Origin: Candidatus Krumholzibacteriota bacterium
GTDB lineage: Bacteria > Krumholzibacteriota > Krumholzibacteriia > Krumholzibacteriales > WJIX01
NCBI GenBank assembly: GCA_034520215.1
Contig: JAXHNR010000002.1
Location: forward strand, 842,642 to 906,641
Direction of reading: 5' to 3'
DNA: 64,000 nt
The position numbers and the translations under genes were made by a program. The notes beneath the pieces are model-generated. The model worked only from the letters and a program-made list of their open reading frames with translations, was not told the DNA's origin and did not search any database. How positions within the stretch are numbered: position 1 is the first letter of the stretch; each line of letters begins with the position of its first letter. This document shows, in pieces, positions 43,422-53,692 of this stretch.

Positions 43422-43850
43422 GTGATCCACACAATTGGAATCGCTTCTTTGATAAGTGTTTTGTGCGCACAGGTTATTAAACCCTTTATTGAATTGATTC
43501 AGGACGGAAAGTTCAATCCTTTACGTATGCTCGATACAGGGGGAATGCCGAGTTCCCATACCGCAATGGTAACTACTCTTACCGTTGGTGTTGGTATATA
43601 CAGAGGAGCGGACTCGGTCCTATTTGGAATAACGTTGATATTCAGTCTCTATTTTGTTTTTGAAGCGACGGGGCTGCGGCAGGAAGTTGGGAATCAGGCA
43701 AGGGTTCTTAATGAAATAATTGAAAAAGCAGGTAAGAGGCATCATATAGATTCTCATGAACTTCGCGAACTCATTGGGCATACCTGGATTGAGGTTCTGG
43801 GAGGAGCCGCGGTCGGACTGGCTGTCGCACTGTTGTTCTTTTACGGATAG
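43422..43850 (+). CDS. YuiD/DUF212 family membrane protein (PAP2-like)
   Basis: 142 residues with four membrane segments. The signature DTGGMPSSHTAMVTTL and the later HTWIEVLGGAAVGLAVA match DUF212, which is distantly related to acid phosphatase/haloperoxidase (PAP2) proteins: SSH and H-x-x-x-E. DUF212 proteins have no settled function. The start is GTG with GGGAGG 8 bases upstream. It ends 359 bases before the ParA-CBM48 operon, with a separate promoter between, so it is probably independent. Confidence 0.88.
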   Translation: MIHTIGIASLISVLCAQVIKPFIELIQDGKFNPLRMLDTGGMPSSHTAMVTTLTVGVGIYRGADSVLFGITLIFSLYFVFEATGLRQEVGNQARVLNEIIEKAGKRHHIDSHELRELIGHTWIEVLGGAAVGLAVALLFFYG

Positions 43851-44208: not shown

Positions 44209-45282
44209 ATGCGGATTATATCAGTAGTTAATCAAAAGGGCGGGTGCGGCAAAACAACCGTAGCGATAAATCTTGCCGCTGCTCTCAGAAAACTCGAAAA
44301 GAAAATGCTTTTGATTGATCTGGATCCCCAGGCGCATGCCTCAATGGGTCTTAATACACCATATGAGAGGATTTCTTATAGCACCTATGATTTACTTATA
44401 GAGCCCAGGTTGAAACTATGCGACGCGGTTTTTGAATTATCCGAGGATTTCCATATCATCCCCTCCCTTCCTATTCTCAGCGCGCTTGAACAGGAGCTTT
44501 CCGGAAAAAAGGGAAGGGAAAGGCATCTTGGATCCAAACTGGCCAGATCGAACGAAGTGTATGATTTTGTAATAATTGATTCACCGCCAAATGTGGGGAT
44601 ACTTACTTTCAATGCCCTCATTGCTTCGAATGAAGTTATTATACCGGTTGAGCCGAGTTCTTTTTCTTTGGACGGCTTGGACCGGCTTAAAGAAACTCTT
44701 GAACTTCTCGAGAGTGAGATAGATCATGCCGTGAGTATGAATGTTCTTATAAATAATCTGGAGAAGGGAACCAGGTTTGCCAGAGATTTCGTGTGTGAGT
44801 TGGAGAAGGAGCATGAATCTATATTGATGAATAATACCGTAAGCCATTCTGTACGGTATAAAGAATCGGCGCACATGGGTGTTTCAATATTTGAAATGAA
44901 AGGTGTTGAGCATCTACAAAGAGAATTCCTGCATATTGCCGAGGAAATAGAAGAAAAAGCCCCGATACTGAATGTGGGGAATATAAAAAGATGGATGGCA
45001 AGGCTTCACGGACCTAAGATTGTGGAAGAAGGTATCCTGTTTTCACTTGACGCGCCGGACGCGGAGAGTGTTTATCTTACAGGTGAATTCGCCAGTTGGT
45101 CCAGGAACGGAATCAAGATGGAGAGAAATTCCATTGATGGACTATGGGAAGTTACCTTGAACCTTGAACCCGGCGAATATGAATACAGATTTATTGTAGA
45201 TGGAAACTGGGTTAAGGATCCAAAGAACAACGATATTGTAGTGAACGAATTCGGTCAGGAAAACTCTCTGCTGATTGTATAA
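44209..45282 (+). CDS. ParA/MinD-like ATPase fused to an AMPK-type CBM48 glycogen-binding domain
   Basis: 357 residues. Residues 1-~255 are a ParA-type ATPase: deviant Walker A NQKGGCGKTT, Walker A' DLDPQAHASMG, and Walker B VIIDSPPNVG. Residues ~270-357 match the AMPK-beta/isoamylase-early-set fold: VYLTGEFASWSRNG, GLWEVTLNLEPGEYEYRFIVDG, NWVKDPKN, and GQENSLLIV. The two glucan-stacking Trp of AMPK-beta are conserved (Trp297, Trp334), as is the closing Asn. So the ATPase probably binds glycogen or another alpha-glucan. No ParB gene is nearby. Two small genes of unknown type follow with overlap or near-overlap. The fusion is not a known partition protein; its cargo is inferred. Confidence 0.88.
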   Translation: MRIISVVNQKGGCGKTTVAINLAAALRKLEKKMLLIDLDPQAHASMGLNTPYERISYSTYDLLIEPRLKLCDAVFELSEDFHIIPSLPILSALEQELSGKKGRERHLGSKLARSNEVYDFVIIDSPPNVGILTFNALIASNEVIIPVEPSSFSLDGLDRLKETLELLESEIDHAVSMNVLINNLEKGTRFARDFVCELEKEHESILMNNTVSHSVRYKESAHMGVSIFEMKGVEHLQREFLHIAEEIEEKAPILNVGNIKRWMARLHGPKIVEEGILFSLDAPDAESVYLTGEFASWSRNGIKMERNSIDGLWEVTLNLEPGEYEYRFIVDGNWVKDPKNNDIVVNEFGQENSLLIV

Positions 45283-45286
45283 TATA

Positions 45287-46066
45287 ATGTCTCCTGGAAA
45301 AACACCTATAGAACTCAAACAGTTATCGCGTCTGTTTCTGTCCGAGGAAGAGAGAGGGGATTCCCGAAAAATAGCAGTACCGGAAGCTTTCATCTGGGTC
45401 ATAGGATCAGAAGTTTCCGCTATGAGGTCTTTTCTGGCAAGCGGCATATCTGCTTCTATTGCCCGCCATGATGTAAATGTAACCCTTGTTGAATGCGGAT
45501 CAGGAATGCCGAATGCCGGCTATTATTTCGCGCTTGAACCCGAGGAATATCTCTCTCCGATACTTGAGGAGAAGGTTGTTATAGAAAGGACTATCTACGA
45601 TTCACTGCGGTTTGTATATGCCGAACATCCGTATATGCTCAGACCCTTTAACGGAGGATTCGTTCGGGATAACACGGCACATATTGTAGTTGAAGCATTT
45701 AATTTTTATCCGGGAACAAGCAGAAAGAATTATTTGGAAGAGATCTTACGCGGTTCACCGTTTTATTCTCTTAAAGACGAGTCCGGCAGTGTTGTTCCAT
45801 TTGTTATAATAATACTGGATTATGACAGGGTTGTTAAGGACAATGATTTTCTTGATTTGCTGTCTTGTATAGCTCCCGGCGCCCAACTTTACGCCTCCGG
45901 CCGGATTCCGGTTAAGAGGACCGGGCGTTTTGATATGGAGAAATTGGATCTTTCCAGCGGAATAGATTATTTATTCGGAAAGCGTCTGCCCCCCTCCGGT
46001 CCATTTTTCTCGGGCTTTACAAATACCCTGCTGCAGAAGATAGGCGGCAGATGGAAGGAAGGATAA
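45287..46066 (+). CDS. Unknown protein, possible MinD-like fold without P-loop
   Basis: 259 residues, no signal peptide or membrane segment. Around residues 30-80 the pattern AFIWVIGSEVSAMRSFLASG, a long helix, then VNVTLVECGSG lines up in spacing with the MinD/ParA strand-P-loop-helix-strand (deviant Walker A to Walker A'), but the Lys and Gly residues of the P-loop are missing. It may be a nucleotide-dead partner of the upstream ATPase. This is inference from spacing, not a confirmed match. ATG 45287 lies 4 bases past the ATPase stop; a TTG at 45275 overlaps it. No ribosome-binding site, so translation is probably coupled. Confidence 0.6.
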   Translation: MSPGKTPIELKQLSRLFLSEEERGDSRKIAVPEAFIWVIGSEVSAMRSFLASGISASIARHDVNVTLVECGSGMPNAGYYFALEPEEYLSPILEEKVVIERTIYDSLRFVYAEHPYMLRPFNGGFVRDNTAHIVVEAFNFYPGTSRKNYLEEILRGSPFYSLKDESGSVVPFVIIILDYDRVVKDNDFLDLLSCIAPGAQLYASGRIPVKRTGRFDMEKLDLSSGIDYLFGKRLPPSGPFFSGFTNTLLQKIGGRWKEG

Positions 46067-46395
46067 TGATCCCCGGTCATACTTTAGACAGTGATATCGA
46101 AGGATTAGGGAAGATTATAGTTGAAGGACCTGTTCGTTCTCTGTTCAGTAATTTTTGCCATGAAATCCTGAAGTTTTCGAATCAAATAGCAAAAAAAACT
46201 ACCCCTTTTGAGATAAGCTTTCATTCAGCTGGGTGTTTGCTGCTTAAAGTGTCTCCGTATAAAGATCTTTTTATTGTATCGATAGGCGACAATTCCTCCG
46301 TTGAAGTGAGGGTGTCCGATAAAGATGGATTCTTCAGGGGGCTTGACCTATCTTTGAAACATTACCTGGATTATCTTTCAACAACACACGGGTAG
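46066..46395 (+). CDS. Unknown small protein, third gene of the ParA-CBM48 operon
   Basis: 109 residues from ATG 46066, which overlaps the preceding stop (TAATG) and has GGAAGG just upstream; an ATG at 46051 would overlap further. Predicted layout: N-terminal helix (GPVRSLFSNFCHEILKFSNQ), then beta strands FEISFHSAGCLLLKV, LFIVSIGD and VEVRVSD, and a final helix LDLSLKHYLDYLS. A helix-strands-helix order of this length is seen in Roadblock/LC7- and longin-like adaptors, which often partner small NTPases, but this is only a resemblance. Function unknown. Confidence 0.6.
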   Translation: MIPGHTLDSDIEGLGKIIVEGPVRSLFSNFCHEILKFSNQIAKKTTPFEISFHSAGCLLLKVSPYKDLFIVSIGDNSSVEVRVSDKDGFFRGLDLSLKHYLDYLSTTHG

Positions 46396-46491: not shown

Positions 46492-46526
46492 TAAGTGGAT
46501 CCCGTCTTTACCACAGGCGGAAGAAT

Positions 46527-48371
46527 ATGCGAAAATATGGATTGATAATACTGCTCTTACTTTTCCCTCTTCTGATTTATTCTTGTATTTTTGAAGACGA
46601 TTCCCTTGCGCCGAACCAGCCTCCAAAAATCGTTTACTTCTCCCCTGATTGGCAGATAGGTACTTTGCGGATTCCGTCAGACTCGGTTAGGCTTAATATC
46701 AAAGCCGTTGATCCTGAAAAAGACAATATCAGATATAGTTTTGTGATAATTGATTCTGCCGGCGGGATAGATTCTGTTCTATCTGATTCTGATTCCGCGG
46801 TTTTTTGCGCGCGTGATAGCGGCATCTACAATATAGAAGGAAGAGCTTACGATTCAGATAATTACGGGAAACACAACTGGTTTATCCAGGTTAATAAAAG
46901 AAATAATGTACCTCCCGTTATTACTGAGTGGACTCCCGGAAGTAAGCTGGTTCAATTTGTAGTGGGGTCTCTCGTCAATTTCAGCTTTAAGGTTAGCGAT
47001 GATCATCCCGAGAATCTGGTTTACGGTTATAAAATGGGAGGTATTACAGTTAAGCCTTTTTCTGCTTACCCGAAACTCAGCTACAGATTTCTGCAGAATG
47101 GTTCTTATTATCTCGAAGGGATTGCTTTCGATGGAGAGTACGCCGATACTGTAGGATGGGATATTACAATCAGCGGAGATCCAGATACTATCGCTCCGGC
47201 CGGAATATGTGACCTTAACGGACACCCCGGCAATGAAATCGGCACAATTACCCTTAATTGGACGACTCCGGGCGATGACGGGTATCAGGGTAATGCCACG
47301 AGATATATTGTACGGACATCAACAATCCGCATAATGACCGAGTTGGCATGGAATCAGGCGAATGACCATACGGGCGAGCCGATACCTTTGGATCCGGGCG
47401 TGGAAGATTCAATGGTATTGCGTTCTCTTCATCCGGGAGAAATGGTTTATGTATCTTTGAGAGCGTATGATGAATTTGGTAATATATCGCCTCTATGCAG
47501 CTCTCCCCATTTGAGAATCCGCGGGTTCGACGTTGAAGGCAGGGTTATTGACGGAATCAGTGGAGAAGGGGTTCAGGGTGTCATTGTATCGTCAAATAAT
47601 GTTGAGGACACCTCTTTGCAGGGCGGACCCTACAAACTTGAAAATCTTACTCTAAGCTCAACATCTCTAACGGCCAGGGATGAATTGGATTCTTCTTCTC
47701 TCGGCGATTATTATGACTTTACTTACAGCTTTGATAAAGTTGGTGAAAATTTAGAGGCTGATTTATGCATGGTTCCGATATTTCCGTTGGTTGACGCCAA
47801 GGATGACCGGTATACGGATTTTCTTGATTTTTTCAAACGAATGACCAATACATCGAGCACATATCAAGCCAGTATCTACAGGGGATGGGGGCATTGGCCG
47901 CTTTTGGTATATAATCCTCCCGTTGTTTGTGATGGCGTCGATCTGCGGGCGGCGGCTGAGGGGGCTATGGCCGAGTGGGAAAGTATCACGGGGATCGATC
48001 TCTTCACAACGACAGAAAATGTCGTGGAAGCTGATGTTGAAATTCTTTACGATTCTACAACCGTACCTGATGACTATGTCAGTCATCGTGTTGAAACCGT
48101 GGAAATGCTTGAAGATGATACACCCGGCAGAAAAGTCATGTTTATCTATACTCTGTTATCCTCGCCTTCTATCACAAATGATACCCATGTAATCTATACA
48201 CATGAGTTTGGGCATGTTATAGGTCTTCATCACAGCTTGGATGAAGGGCACATAATGATTGGTTTGACTTTTCCAAAGGTTGAGCATGTCTCTACTGATG
48301 AATCAAATCTGGTAAAGATACTTTATAATTTACCTCCTGTTTTTGATTCCGACTGGATAGTTGAGGACTGA
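46527..48371 (+). CDS. Matrixin-like metalloprotease lipoprotein with Ig/FN3-like domains
   Basis: 614 residues with a lipobox (PLLIYSC|I). Residues ~25-220 hold two Ig-like units (PPKIVYFSPDW..., PPVITEWTPGS...). An FN3-like unit (~235-335, TLNWTTPGDDG) and a CarboxypepD_reg-like repeat (VEGRVIDGISGEGVQGVIV) follow. The C-terminal ~160 residues are a zincin with HEFGHVIGLHH (HExxHxxGxxH) and a later Met (HIM) typical of matrixins. ATG 46527 has GGAAG upstream; a frame to 46464 lies over the promoter. A surface-bound protease, next to a secreted C25 peptidase. Confidence 0.83.
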   Translation: MRKYGLIILLLLFPLLIYSCIFEDDSLAPNQPPKIVYFSPDWQIGTLRIPSDSVRLNIKAVDPEKDNIRYSFVIIDSAGGIDSVLSDSDSAVFCARDSGIYNIEGRAYDSDNYGKHNWFIQVNKRNNVPPVITEWTPGSKLVQFVVGSLVNFSFKVSDDHPENLVYGYKMGGITVKPFSAYPKLSYRFLQNGSYYLEGIAFDGEYADTVGWDITISGDPDTIAPAGICDLNGHPGNEIGTITLNWTTPGDDGYQGNATRYIVRTSTIRIMTELAWNQANDHTGEPIPLDPGVEDSMVLRSLHPGEMVYVSLRAYDEFGNISPLCSSPHLRIRGFDVEGRVIDGISGEGVQGVIVSSNNVEDTSLQGGPYKLENLTLSSTSLTARDELDSSSLGDYYDFTYSFDKVGENLEADLCMVPIFPLVDAKDDRYTDFLDFFKRMTNTSSTYQASIYRGWGHWPLLVYNPPVVCDGVDLRAAAEGAMAEWESITGIDLFTTTENVVEADVEILYDSTTVPDDYVSHRVETVEMLEDDTPGRKVMFIYTLLSSPSITNDTHVIYTHEFGHVIGLHHSLDEGHIMIGLTFPKVEHVSTDESNLVKILYNLPPVFDSDWIVED

Positions 48372-48550: not shown

Positions 48551-48709
48551 AAAGCTCAACGACTTTTCTTTCTTATGCGTTTAAACCGTAGAGAGTCATA
48601 TTCTTGAAGGAGTCGCATCATAGGGCCATACAGCTAACGTCTTATCATAGACAAAATGCTATCAGTATAGAATCCGAAGGCTTTCTCTTTGCCAATCAGG
48701 AGGACGAAA

Positions 48710-51700
48710 ATGCGTAGATCTGTTTTATGTATGATTATGATAATTTTCACGGCAGGTTTGTTATTAACGCCGGAAGCTGCTTTAACATCGACCGTCACTT
48801 GGGATTTCTCCATGGAGAGATCTGATGCTGATTTCTCCGAACCTGTTGCGGGCGCACAACGATTTACCGAGATTGAAGGTTTTCAGATGACAGAATATCT
48901 GGATTATCCTCAGGTACCATATCGAGTTGTGAGCCTGTTAATCCCCCAGGGTGAAAAGGTTTCTTCCATAGAACTTATTGACGTAGAATCAGTTGACTTT
49001 GAAAAACCTGTGCTTCTGGCTAATTATAACGGTGAATTGCTTGACGATGGGACGAAACTGGGCTTAACCGCGGATAAAGAGGATATAATTACTTCAGATT
49101 CTGCCTTTCCAAAATGGCAGATCCGGCACCTGGGCACAAATAATTACAGGGAGTATAGAATAGTCTCTATAGCAATTTATCCCATACATTATTCAATTGA
49201 AACCAGTGAACTGGAGATGATTACGAAGGCAAAACTCATTGTTGAGACAGCCCCGCGTGATTTTAAAGGCAGTGACGCCAAGCGGATAAGGCATATAAAG
49301 GGTTTCAGGAAAGAATCCAGGGAAATAGTTGAATCTATGGTGGAAAATGAAGATATGGCGTCATCCTATTTGTTCGAAGATATAAGAGTCGATGATACTA
49401 AGCGTGGTTTTCTTCCGAGTTATATGCCGAGCACCGAAGGCAGTGAAGTTAAATATATTATTATTACTAATGAGGAAATGAAAGCCACCTTTCAGGAATT
49501 CGCAGACAGAAAGACTAGAGAGGGCATCCCCGCTGTAGTAAAAACCGTTCAATGGATTGAGAATAATTATAGAAATGGTGTTGATATAGCTGAATCAATA
49601 AGAAACTTCATTCAGGAAGCATACGCGAAATGGGGGGCTGAATGGGTTCTTCTTGCAGGTGATACAGATGTAATTCCTGATAGAGTCGCGTACTCGGATT
49701 TTTATTATGGTGAATATATTCCTACCGATATGTATTATTCCTGTCTTGACGGAACGTGGAATGCTGATGGAGATTCTCTCTGGGGAGAAGCTCCCGGGGC
49801 GACCGCGGGCGATGATGCTGATTTGTATTCAGAAGTTTATATTGGAAGAATGCCCGTTTCCACGTTAGAGGAAGCGGAACTGTTAATCAACAAAACGATA
49901 GATTATGAAACCCCCTCGGATACCACATCAAAAGAAAAATTTCTGATGCTGGGTGAAGTGTTATTCCCCTCCGATTATTCACCGGGCGATGATATTATTC
50001 TCGATGGTGCTGAGCTGTTAGATGACATATATCAAAGCTGGCTTCAAGGACACACCGAGATTACAACTGACAGGCTCTATGAAAATTATCCGGCATACTC
50101 GGGTTCTGAGGAATTGACAAAAGCGAGCGCTTTATCTTATCTGGATGCCGGCACTAATCATGTCGTACATGCCGGGCACGGCTACAAATACAATATGTCG
50201 GTCGGAGACGCAAGCATCTTGAATTATGATGCTAATAATCTCACAAATGGGGACGCTCTTTTCTCAATGTACCTAATGAATTGTACAAATGCCTCTTATG
50301 ACACGGATTGCCTCGCGGAATATTTTCTTCTCAACAATACAGGCGGCGCTTACGCTGTTACCGGCTCCAGCAGATCGGCGTTTCCAAGCACTTCAAGGCT
50401 TTATATGGAGGAATATTACAGGCTTGTTTTTGATGAGAATATAATGGAACTGGGTAAATTGTATACCCTGTCCCGGGAACCTTACACATCATCGGCTTTA
50501 TCGGAATCGAGTCACAGGTGGACACATTTCATCTGTAATTTACTGGGAGATCCTGAAGCTATGATGCACAGAGGCGAGGTTAAGAATTTCAGCGTAACTC
50601 TTCCGCCTTCTCTCGCGATGGGTGAAAATGATGTGACAGTGGCTGTTCAGAGTGATGGAATGCCTTTCGATTCGGCCAGAGTCTGTCTTTATAAGGAGAA
50701 CGATGATTACATCTATGGGAATACGGATTTATCGGGTGAAATAACATTCAATGATTTTCTCTGCAGAGAACAGGGCATGGTATATGTGGCAGTTACCGGT
50801 TTGAATCACAGCGTTTATCTTGACACAATAGAAGTGTTGCAGGAGAGCGGGCCGTATCTAAGGGTGTCTGATAAAAACTGCTCTGATTCTTCCGGCGGTA
50901 ATGGAGACGGTGTAATAGATAGCGGAGAAACTCTGGATCTCTTTGTTGAAATCGAGAATACCGGAGGCACCGACGCGGAGAAACTCTACGCTAAACTGTC
51001 TTCCTCTGATACGGGTGTTACCGTTATAGACAGCACCGCACTTTATCCCGACATAGTAGCCGGCGGAAAAGAATTTGGAAATGACCCTTTCAGTTTCAGC
51101 GTTAGTCCGGGGTATGGGGATGAAGAAGTAATAGAATTTCAGATTGCCGTTCTTGATTCTTCAGGGTCGGTTTGGAGTGAACATTTTGCCTTCGAAGTTC
51201 ACGCTCCGAGGATAGAACTATATGTAAACTCTAAATCGGACGAACTCCCCTACGGTGACGGGGATGGAACGGTGGAGACAGGAGAGAATTTTCTGCTTAA
51301 AATCGGAGTAAAGAATTTTGGAACAGGATCGGCAGTCGGACTGGAAGGAGTGATTTCTTCGCTTGACCCCGATCTTACAGTTATAGACGGTGTTTCGACC
51401 TATGCTGATATAGCTCCTATGGAGATTGGATACGGCAACGGGTTTGTTGTTTCTGAAGATAGTCTGAGCAGGAACAATTATTTCTCTCTAACTCTTACAG
51501 ATAACCGCGGAAGGGTTTTTACTAAACAGCTTGAATTGAGAGAGCCCCAGGCACCTGAAAACGTCAATCTGGACGCGAGCCTGGGAGCTGATCAAATTGT
51601 GTTGTTCTGGCATCACGCTTCTTCCGGCGATACATTAAATGATTTTCTTGTATACCGCTCTCTGAGCTCGGGAGGGCCGTTCAGTCAAGTCAGTAAAGAT

Positions 51701-53692
51701 TTGCTTTTTCACACGACATACCATGATTATGGTTTATTGTCCAGCACACATTATTATTATCTTGTAGCCGCAGTCGACTCATGCGGGAATATGGGTCCCT
51801 ATTGCAATGAAGTGTCAATAACTACAAGCCCGGCTCAGCAGACCGGCTGGCCGAACAGAATGCAGAAAGAAACATCCAGCAGCCCGAAGATAGGCGATAT
51901 TGACGGCGACAGTGATAATGAACTTGTTATCGGGTCTGATTACATGTATGCCTGGCATGATGACGGGATAGAGTTAAGGGACGGCGATAACAAACCGTTA
52001 ACCTGGGGTATTTTGAATACTGAAGGTGATAACTTCGTTGCTGCTCCAACCCTTGTAGACCTCGACGGTCAGGCCGGCGCTGAGATTGTCGGGTCATCAT
52101 GGAATACTGATGAAATTTATGTCTTTGATAGTGAAGGTAATAATCTTCCGGGATGGCCAAAGAGCACGGCTAGTTTCTGCTGGGCCAGCTCGGCTGCGGG
52201 AGATTTTGACGGCGACGGTGATAAAGAGCTGGCAACACAGGATATAAGCGGTAATGTGTATGTGTGGCATCATGACGGTTCAGAAATGACAGACGGCGAT
52301 GGCGATCCCGGCACTGACGGGATTTTCCTGGCAGGGGACGGAACTGGCGATGGCTGGCATGTTTCTACACCCTCTTTCGCGGATATCGACGGTGATGGTG
52401 TTCTGGAGCTTATTGTCGGTGATCACAATGACAGTCTGTACTGTTTGAATTCAGACGGAAGCTCTGTCAGCGGCTGGCCCGTTTTTATCGGTGACGCCGG
52501 AGCTATTATTACCGCCAGCCCGGCGGTAGGTGATATTGACAATGACGGAGAAATGGAAATTGTTGTCCAGAATAATGTTGGCAGGGTGTTGGGACTGAAT
52601 CATGACGGCAGTACTATGAGCGGCTGGCCGAAATGGGTATCGAGCTCCGGTTACTTTATTGGTTCACCTGCTCTCGGCGATCTAACAGACGACGGAAGTC
52701 TTGAAGTTGTTGTTCCCGGTAATAACGGTATGTGTTATATATTCCGCTCTGATGGTTCATCTCTTTCGAATTGGCCTCAGCCTTATGATAAGAATGGAGG
52801 GACTACTGAATCTTCACCTGTTATCGCGGATTTGAATAACGACGGCAGTCTTGATATCGTCCTGGCCTGTGAAGAAGGACAGTTGAATGCCTGGGATGTC
52901 AGCGGAAATTCCCTGTTGGGATTTCCGATTAGACTCAAAGGATTTCTAAGGGGGACTCCCTCGATAGATGATATAGATAATGACGGTGATATCGAACTGG
53001 CCGTTTCATGCTGGGACCAGAATGTTTATATATGGGATCTTGATGGAGAGAAATATTATAAATATGATCCCTGGAACGGATTCCACGCTAATATTCATAA
53101 TAACGGCTGCTTTGATTATTCAGATATTACCGCCGTAAATGAAATAGCGTTTCATTATAAGCTGGAGAGTAGCGGAGTAAGACTGGACTGGCTTGTCCCA
53201 TACGGCGCCGGTTCCTTCGACCTTTACAGAAGGACAGATACCAGGGAATATGAATTGGTCAGGGGCGGATTAAGAGCCGATGAGGCTGGAATGATTCAGT
53301 ATACTGACAGGGCGGCTCAGGAGGGCTTGGTTTACTATTATAAGTTAGAGGGGGAGGATAATGACCTCTTCTTTGAAACAAACGGTGTAAATGTGCCCGT
53401 TACAAGAGCGAGACTTTATCAGAATCACCCAAACCCCTTCAATCCCTCAACGAAGATATCATTTACAGTACCCGGCACTTCTGAATCCAGCCGGAACACA
53501 CTGCTTCTGGTTTACGATGCCAGGGGTGCTCTAGTAAAAACCCTTGTAAATAGACCGGTAAGCGGAGGAAGACATACAGTTGAGTGGCAGGGTGATAATA
53601 ATAGAGGAGCCGCGGTTTCAAGCGGAGTCTATTTTTCACGTCTCCGTGTTGGAGGTTTTAAGGATACCAAGAAGATGATACTTCTTCGTTAA
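48710..53692 (+). CDS. Giant gingipain-like (C25) peptidase with FG-GAP repeats and type IX sorting domain
   Basis: 1660 residues: signal peptide (~1-25), prodomain (~26-235), C25 caspase-fold domain (~240-590) with catalytic-type His in HAGHG (487-491) and Cys525 in NCTNAS, two CARDB-like Ig units (~715-940) with DGVIDSGE and DGTVETGE loops, FN3 (~955-1045), seven or so VCBS/FG-GAP repeats (~1065-1460, for example GDIDGDSDNELVIG), and a C-terminal FlgD-like sorting domain (~1569-1660) starting YQNHPNPFNPST. The last is the type A type IX secretion signal. ATG 48710 has AGGAGG 6 bases upstream. A secreted, cell-surface peptidase. Confidence 0.9.
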   Translation: MRRSVLCMIMIIFTAGLLLTPEAALTSTVTWDFSMERSDADFSEPVAGAQRFTEIEGFQMTEYLDYPQVPYRVVSLLIPQGEKVSSIELIDVESVDFEKPVLLANYNGELLDDGTKLGLTADKEDIITSDSAFPKWQIRHLGTNNYREYRIVSIAIYPIHYSIETSELEMITKAKLIVETAPRDFKGSDAKRIRHIKGFRKESREIVESMVENEDMASSYLFEDIRVDDTKRGFLPSYMPSTEGSEVKYIIITNEEMKATFQEFADRKTREGIPAVVKTVQWIENNYRNGVDIAESIRNFIQEAYAKWGAEWVLLAGDTDVIPDRVAYSDFYYGEYIPTDMYYSCLDGTWNADGDSLWGEAPGATAGDDADLYSEVYIGRMPVSTLEEAELLINKTIDYETPSDTTSKEKFLMLGEVLFPSDYSPGDDIILDGAELLDDIYQSWLQGHTEITTDRLYENYPAYSGSEELTKASALSYLDAGTNHVVHAGHGYKYNMSVGDASILNYDANNLTNGDALFSMYLMNCTNASYDTDCLAEYFLLNNTGGAYAVTGSSRSAFPSTSRLYMEEYYRLVFDENIMELGKLYTLSREPYTSSALSESSHRWTHFICNLLGDPEAMMHRGEVKNFSVTLPPSLAMGENDVTVAVQSDGMPFDSARVCLYKENDDYIYGNTDLSGEITFNDFLCREQGMVYVAVTGLNHSVYLDTIEVLQESGPYLRVSDKNCSDSSGGNGDGVIDSGETLDLFVEIENTGGTDAEKLYAKLSSSDTGVTVIDSTALYPDIVAGGKEFGNDPFSFSVSPGYGDEEVIEFQIAVLDSSGSVWSEHFAFEVHAPRIELYVNSKSDELPYGDGDGTVETGENFLLKIGVKNFGTGSAVGLEGVISSLDPDLTVIDGVSTYADIAPMEIGYGNGFVVSEDSLSRNNYFSLTLTDNRGRVFTKQLELREPQAPENVNLDASLGADQIVLFWHHASSGDTLNDFLVYRSLSSGGPFSQVSKDLLFHTTYHDYGLLSSTHYYYLVAAVDSCGNMGPYCNEVSITTSPAQQTGWPNRMQKETSSSPKIGDIDGDSDNELVIGSDYMYAWHDDGIELRDGDNKPLTWGILNTEGDNFVAAPTLVDLDGQAGAEIVGSSWNTDEIYVFDSEGNNLPGWPKSTASFCWASSAAGDFDGDGDKELATQDISGNVYVWHHDGSEMTDGDGDPGTDGIFLAGDGTGDGWHVSTPSFADIDGDGVLELIVGDHNDSLYCLNSDGSSVSGWPVFIGDAGAIITASPAVGDIDNDGEMEIVVQNNVGRVLGLNHDGSTMSGWPKWVSSSGYFIGSPALGDLTDDGSLEVVVPGNNGMCYIFRSDGSSLSNWPQPYDKNGGTTESSPVIADLNNDGSLDIVLACEEGQLNAWDVSGNSLLGFPIRLKGFLRGTPSIDDIDNDGDIELAVSCWDQNVYIWDLDGEKYYKYDPWNGFHANIHNNGCFDYSDITAVNEIAFHYKLESSGVRLDWLVPYGAGSFDLYRRTDTREYELVRGGLRADEAGMIQYTDRAAQEGLVYYYKLEGEDNDLFFETNGVNVPVTRARLYQNHPNPFNPSTKISFTVPGTSESSRNTLLLVYDARGALVKTLVNRPVSGGRHTVEWQGDNNRGAAVSSGVYFSRLRVGGFKDTKKMILLR

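Follow-up and report, generated by a model that had tools for sequence, protein, structure and literature searches.

The window (the whole 64,000-nucleotide stretch of DNA that was analysed) belongs to a 2.6 Mb genome in two contigs and contains three genes, A, B and C, that lie head to tail on the plus strand, exactly where the first-pass annotation had placed three coupled genes. Gene A (44209–45282) encodes a ParA-type ATPase (residues 1–250) fused to a C-terminal AMPK-beta-type CBM48 domain, and the fusion recurs throughout the phylum. Gene B (45287–46066) encodes an N-terminal peptide of the activator type, followed by a MinD-like domain that lacks a P-loop. The best start of gene B is the ATG at 45287, 4 bp past the stop codon of A, and the listed open reading frame starts at a TTG at 45275. 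Gene C (46066–46395) encodes a small α-β5-α protein that is conserved in the alignment. It starts with the ATG at 46066 in a TAATG overlap with the stop codon of B, and an alternative start is the ATG at 46051.

A DUF212 (divergent PAP2) membrane protein is encoded upstream of A on the plus strand (43422–43850; Pfam, 1.5e-38). In relatives from the same order with long enough contigs, the gene order is SBP_bac_5, DUF212, A, B, C and M10 peptidase, and A-B-C is intact in all of those whose contigs cover the locus. The A-B pair persists in families with different surroundings, and the linkage is kept across families and phyla. Given the order kept in the spanning relatives and the presence of the fusion throughout the phylum, the arrangement is far beyond chance. 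Directly 3′ of A-B-C in the window is the gene for a matrixin-like (M10) putative lipoprotein (46524–48368), which is kept in families f1 and f2 and part of f7. The second gene past C (48689–53692) encodes a 1667-residue protein that is gingipain-like by eye and whose C-terminus is a FlgD-like sorting region of the kind used in type IX secretion. TldD/PmbA-type metallopeptidase genes are found close to A at three loci from two different phyla (L095, L152 and L162).

ATPase and CBM48 domains of protein A

The ATPase part of A matches the Pfam family AAA_31 (6.4e-47, residues 1–175), and its matches among solved structures are ParA/Soj chains, with 8ray_B as the best PDB match (5e-34, phmmer). 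A BcsQ-type profile also matches A (5e-11), but A scores better as ParA. The deviant Walker A motif, QKGGCGKTT (44233–44259, plus strand), is complete, as noted at first pass; with its KGGCGKTT segment and ParA core, A has two sequence features of ParA/MinD ATPases, a deviant Walker A of the form KGGxxKT and the ParA core. Homologue alignments identify Cys13 within the motif as specific to the subfamily: the cysteine is found in 48 of 49 in-phylum proteins and in 20 of 20 homologues from other phyla, and the corresponding residue is valine in the Soj of the same genome.

The DNA-contacting residues of HpSoj, K199, K227 and K230 (PMC11229316), were mapped onto A using the genome's own Soj as an alignment bridge. 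HpSoj K199 corresponds to R192 of A (arginine or lysine in 47/49 in-phylum proteins), and K230 corresponds to R216 (arginine or lysine in 48/49). K227, a residue central to the DNA surface, corresponds to H213, and histidine occupies this position in 42 of the 49 proteins. Because two of the three contact positions are basic and the K227 position is mostly histidine, non-specific DNA binding by A is likely to be present but altered.

The CBM48 domain of A (residues 265–357; 45001–45279, plus strand) is recognised by the Pfam profiles AMPK1_CBM (8.4e-14, residues 284–355) and CBM_48 (2.8e-9). The AMPK1_CBM match scores 52.0 bits, about twice the curated cut-off of 26.8 bits, and the solved structures that match the tail of A are AMPK beta chains. 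The glycogen-contacting residues of AMPK beta1 are W100, K126, W133 and N150 (PMC4032982), and they align with W297, R327, W334 and N352 of A. All four positions are invariant or nearly so in the phylum (W297, W334 and N352 in 49/49 proteins each; arginine or lysine at 327 in 48/49). They are also widely retained among 20 proteins from other phyla, with tryptophan at 297 in 18, arginine or lysine at 327 in 18, tryptophan at 334 in 17 and asparagine at 352 in 14. The first-pass annotation had proposed an AMPK-beta-type CBM48 with both tryptophans and had staked its reading on a CBM48 match in an HMM or structure search and on homologues of the three genes staying together in related genomes. 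The family match, the complete conservation of W297 and W334 within the phylum and the gene order described above bear out these points.

An alpha-glucan is the putative ligand of this domain, judging from the conserved contact residues. The closest relative of the CBM48 of A within the same genome is the CBM48 of a lipoprotein, so the domain alone is no proof of a cytoplasmic glycogen ligand. Elsewhere in this genome, two tandem lipoproteins carry one CBM48 domain each (L001:1489–1893 and 1896–2279; G000:C1, about 1417771–1418438). Beside them is encoded a secreted CBM48 protein of more than 600 residues with a weak match to a type IX secretion plug, and the three proteins together represent an extracellular use of CBM48.

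Proteins B and C

Protein B has no match in Pfam or NCBIfam. Its AlphaFold2 model (pLDDT 81.7) resembles FleN, MinD, Soj and NifH in Foldseek searches (probability 1.00, E 7.5e-5, TM about 0.5), and B orthologues match the CbiA/MinD/ParA domain (1.4e-4 and 1.1e-3 in family f3, 7e-8 at L158 and 1.8e-5 at L154). The MinD-like descent of B rests on the model fold and these orthologue matches, and not on a profile comparison between A and B, which is too weak by itself (probability 1.8, E 0.03) to prove a derivation of B from A. The P-loop is nearly intact in B of L158 (SGKGVRGKTLVA), L152 (TGGDDAPGKSTVA) and L162 (TGGNGAPGKSTVA), eroded in B of L160 (SPPGGVEKPFLLA) and lost in B of the window. 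The MinD-like fold devoid of a P-loop that had been suspected from residue spacing is thus present in the model. The accompanying description of B as a dead paralogue captures the eroded ParA/MinD fold but falls short of a protein that is likely to be an activating partner by virtue of its N-terminal peptide.

The N-terminal peptide of B (MSPGKTPIELKQLSRLFLS; 45287–45343, plus strand) is basic, forms the best-conserved part of the protein and contains a ParB-like motif that nearly all B proteins retain. It is disordered in the model, with a pLDDT of about 45, and the first 27 residues are mostly below 50. In the phylum, the N-terminus of B approximates to R-x-x-(L/I)-x-(D/S)-(V/I)-(S/A)-H-(L/H)-(F/Y)-(L/F)-(S/D). 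This pattern is found just 3′ of A in most in-phylum loci, and its strict form occurs nowhere else within those loci. The peptide is of the KLGRGLxDISHLFLS type in other phyla, where five B loci have LGRGL or LGRGM and one has MGRGL, followed by (E/D)(I/V/F)S(H/N). Examples are KRLGRGLADVSHVFLS (L158), KSLGRGMEEISHIFLS (L154), KKLGRGLEDISHLFLS (L169), RKLGRGLAEVSNVFQS/T (L153 and L163) and MGRGLEDFSHLFLS (L160), which were compared with the beginning of the genome's own ParB, MKKRVLGRGLEALIS. An LGRGL-type N-terminal peptide is the type that ParB uses to activate ParA (PMC10241942; PMC12462528), and a charged, disordered N-terminal peptide is the published criterion for a partner that activates a ParA/MinD ATPase (PMC13170346). 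The ParB-type peptide therefore suggests that B probably activates the ATPase of A. The body of B is less constant than its peptide: in family f32 (L151 and L161), B keeps the N-terminal peptide, and the body is Cys-rich (ENCASCAHL...) rather than MinD-like. A constant peptide on a variable body is the pattern that an activating partner should display.

The absence of a ParB, noted at first pass, holds for the neighbourhood of A, but B itself carries a ParA-activating N-terminal peptide of the ParB type. This peptide and the ParA homology of A would also fit an accessory, parABS-like DNA-partition system in which the CBM48 is a passenger. Such a system is very improbable, given that neither B nor its orthologues contain a ParB/Srx or HTH domain in Pfam, that the genome already has a Soj/ParB pair elsewhere (C2, about 162 kb) and that the CBM48 and its ligand residues are kept across phyla. 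An ordinary parABS was rejected on the first two of these grounds, and since the ParB domain is missing, the A-B module is placed under ParA/MinD systems and not under ParABS.

The body of B varies between most lineages, where it is MinD-like, and f32, where it is Cys-rich, as would be expected of an output domain, and one residue of the DNA surface is lost in A. Both features agree with a glucan sensor that acts as a switch and not as a walker, in which the CBM48 would read glycogen and alter the ATP cycle of A with no cargo moved. AMPK-beta is a precedent for a CBM48 that acts as a sensor (PMC2642990). The output of such a switch would be a signal through which B acts on carbohydrate metabolism or on the cell cycle. 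A switch of this kind is considered rather unlikely: the ParA features of A and the ParB-like activator peptide of B indicate a nucleotide-driven binding cycle, and neither an output domain nor a target has been identified.

Protein C has no match in Pfam or NCBIfam and no other sequence match, and it was recognised outside the phylum in one family, f76. The first-pass call of a small third protein agrees with its model (pLDDT 89.0), an alpha/beta structure in which a five-stranded sheet is combined with helices. No significant match to a solved fold was obtained for this model, the best being YdhG/frataxin-like (E 0.46). A protein encoded between B and Wzy in family f5 was considered as gene C and ruled out.

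Distribution and glycan-related neighbourhoods

With a cut-off of E below 1e-70, A was found in 62 of the 80 genomes sampled from the phylum. The match nearly always extends over the full 357 positions, and searches of the class and the phylum gave an identical set. At a looser threshold, the matches in these genomes form two peaks, one of which stems from a canonical Soj that is present in nearly every genome and aligns only with approximately positions 2–250. This search yielded no unfused orthologue of A in the 80 genomes, and nearly every A-bearing genome carries a separate Soj. In a search of 387 genomes that extended to other phyla, the fusion of A and CBM48 was located in about 15 more genomes, from approximately eleven families. 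In a tree of the ParA part, all 69 A proteins form one clade (support 0.85), outside which the included Soj and other ParA paralogues fall, and the P-loop signature KGGCGKT is found in nearly all proteins of the A clade. A contig scan with a single-sequence query recovered only a distant ParA and was uninformative. A plasmid search returned ParA relatives, of which the best-covering one, with 294 residues, is too short to include a CBM48. In family f93 (L153 and L163), an A of the same clade has no CBM48 and is followed by a B with the canonical LGRGL peptide. The glucan domain may have been lost, or gained late, and the retention of B beside an A that lacks the CBM48 counts against the favoured reading of a ParA-type module with glucan as the ligand.

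A connection of A to glycogen genes is observed in family f7. In G033, the genes that come after A on its strand encode a stand-alone CBM48 protein, a pair of GT4/GT5 glycosyltransferases, a GH57 branching enzyme and an alpha-glucan phosphorylase. Glycogen synthase is the best NCBIfam profile for both glycosyltransferases. No recognisable B accompanies this full glycogen operon, a further point against the favoured reading. In G036, A-B-C is followed by a CBM48 gene and the same glycosyltransferase as in G033, the latter partly N-masked. This genome has two A-B copies (L050 and L089), one of which adjoins the CBM48 and GT4/GT5 genes, and both loci are partly N-masked. The linkage in f7 may represent one evolutionary event. 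Outside the phylum, at L162, a GH13 amylase with a CBM48 is encoded three genes upstream of A.

The window's genome encodes GlgA and a GH57 branching enzyme. Within the phylum, GlgA is present in 52/62 genomes with A and 12/18 without A, which is not a significant difference (p 0.18). The corresponding counts outside the phylum are 16/18 and 40/62 (p 0.08), and the 18 A-bearing genomes in this comparison include two f93 genomes without the CBM48. When the two sets are combined (68/80 versus 52/80), the Mantel-Haenszel odds ratio is 3.3 (p 0.02), a value that ignores shared ancestry. Genus g36 has GlgA and lacks A. The glycogen link of A is graded as moderate.

Other neighbourhoods point to other glycans. 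An O-antigen-type cluster with a Wzy ligase, glycosyltransferases and a WecA-like gene begins with A-B in families f5 and f6. In 39 of 48 in-phylum loci, the gene immediately upstream of A, in the same orientation, encodes DUF212. Together with the BcsQ-type match of A and the CBM48 lipoproteins of the window's genome, these neighbours would suit a factor that, like BcsQ, places the machinery for cell-surface polysaccharide, with DUF212 as its membrane partner. The CBM48 would then bind a surface glycan precursor or serve as an E-set domain for protein contacts. This explanation is unlikely because the glycogen-contact residues of A are all invariant or nearly so, A is tied to an intracellular glucan operon in f7, the DUF212 link is missing in the other-phyla loci that were inspected (L151–L170), and A scores better as ParA than as BcsQ. 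The O-antigen cluster, DUF212 and the CBM48 lipoproteins may nevertheless indicate other glycans, or mere sensing, instead of glycogen positioning.

Proposed cycle and comparison with known systems

ParA/MinD ATPases position chromosomes, plasmids, carboxysomes, flagella and division sites. The best reading of the A-B module, drawn from sequence comparison, is a ParA-type system that would position, partition or sense alpha-glucan. That A and B form a ParA-type module for positioning or partitioning, with a glucan as the ligand, is given a probability of about 0.45. A more specific form, a widespread and so far undescribed ParA system in which a CBM48-bearing ATPase, driven by a pseudo-ATPase partner through its ParB-like peptide, distributes glycogen granules along the nucleoid or ensures their inheritance, is a tentative proposal and somewhat unlikely.

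In the proposed cycle, A and B would act as a two-part module with C as an accessory. A would bind ATP, dimerise and most likely hold the nucleoid non-specifically, and its CBM48 tail would hold alpha-glucan (glycogen). The ParB-like N-terminal peptide of B would contact the A dimer and induce ATP hydrolysis, upon which A would be released. The MinD-like pseudo-ATPase body of B, and perhaps C, would couple the cycle to a second site or signal. Through repeated binding and release, glycogen particles would be spread, tethered or partitioned along the nucleoid, or the glucan level would be reported to B.

In the open-licence literature searched, no description of a ParA-CBM48 protein was found, and no ParA/MinD ATPase with a built-in carbohydrate-binding domain was encountered. 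The parts belong to known families; their combination, the partner and the breadth of distribution are, as far as could be found, undescribed. The CBM48-bearing ParA may be the first ParA-mechanism system for the placing or sensing of glycogen. If confirmed, such a system would tie the organisation of cell space to carbon storage, offer a testable answer to how bacterial glycogen is shared at division and provide an AMPK-like glucan reader in bacteria. B, in which a peptide of the ParB activating type is attached to a decaying MinD-like ATPase, is a clear example of how such partners can arise.

Four known systems share features with the module. BcsQ of cellulose synthesis is likewise a ParA-like ATPase tied to polysaccharide biology, with a weaker family match to A. 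BcsQ is not known to bear a CBM48, and no cellulose synthase genes are found among the annotated neighbours of A in the tested neighbourhoods. AMPK beta has the same CBM48 domain, and A retains its four glycogen-contact positions, but the CBM48 of A is joined to a ParA ATPase without a kinase. Chromosomal ParABS (ParA/Soj) shares with A the ATPase fold, the deviant Walker A and two basic DNA-contact positions, and its ParB-type N-terminal peptide is found in B. It differs in that A bears a CBM48 and belongs to its own clade with KGGCGKT, in a genome that has a separate Soj/ParB, and in that B is a MinD-like pseudo-ATPase without a ParB/Srx or HTH domain. The McdAB and PomXYZ systems also combine an ATPase with a partner that activates it through a charged and disordered N-terminal peptide (PMC10241942, PMC13170346). 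In those systems, the partner provides the link to the cargo. The A-B module has the putative cargo-binding domain on its ATPase, an arrangement that also sets it apart from ParABS, and its partner is an eroded ATPase.
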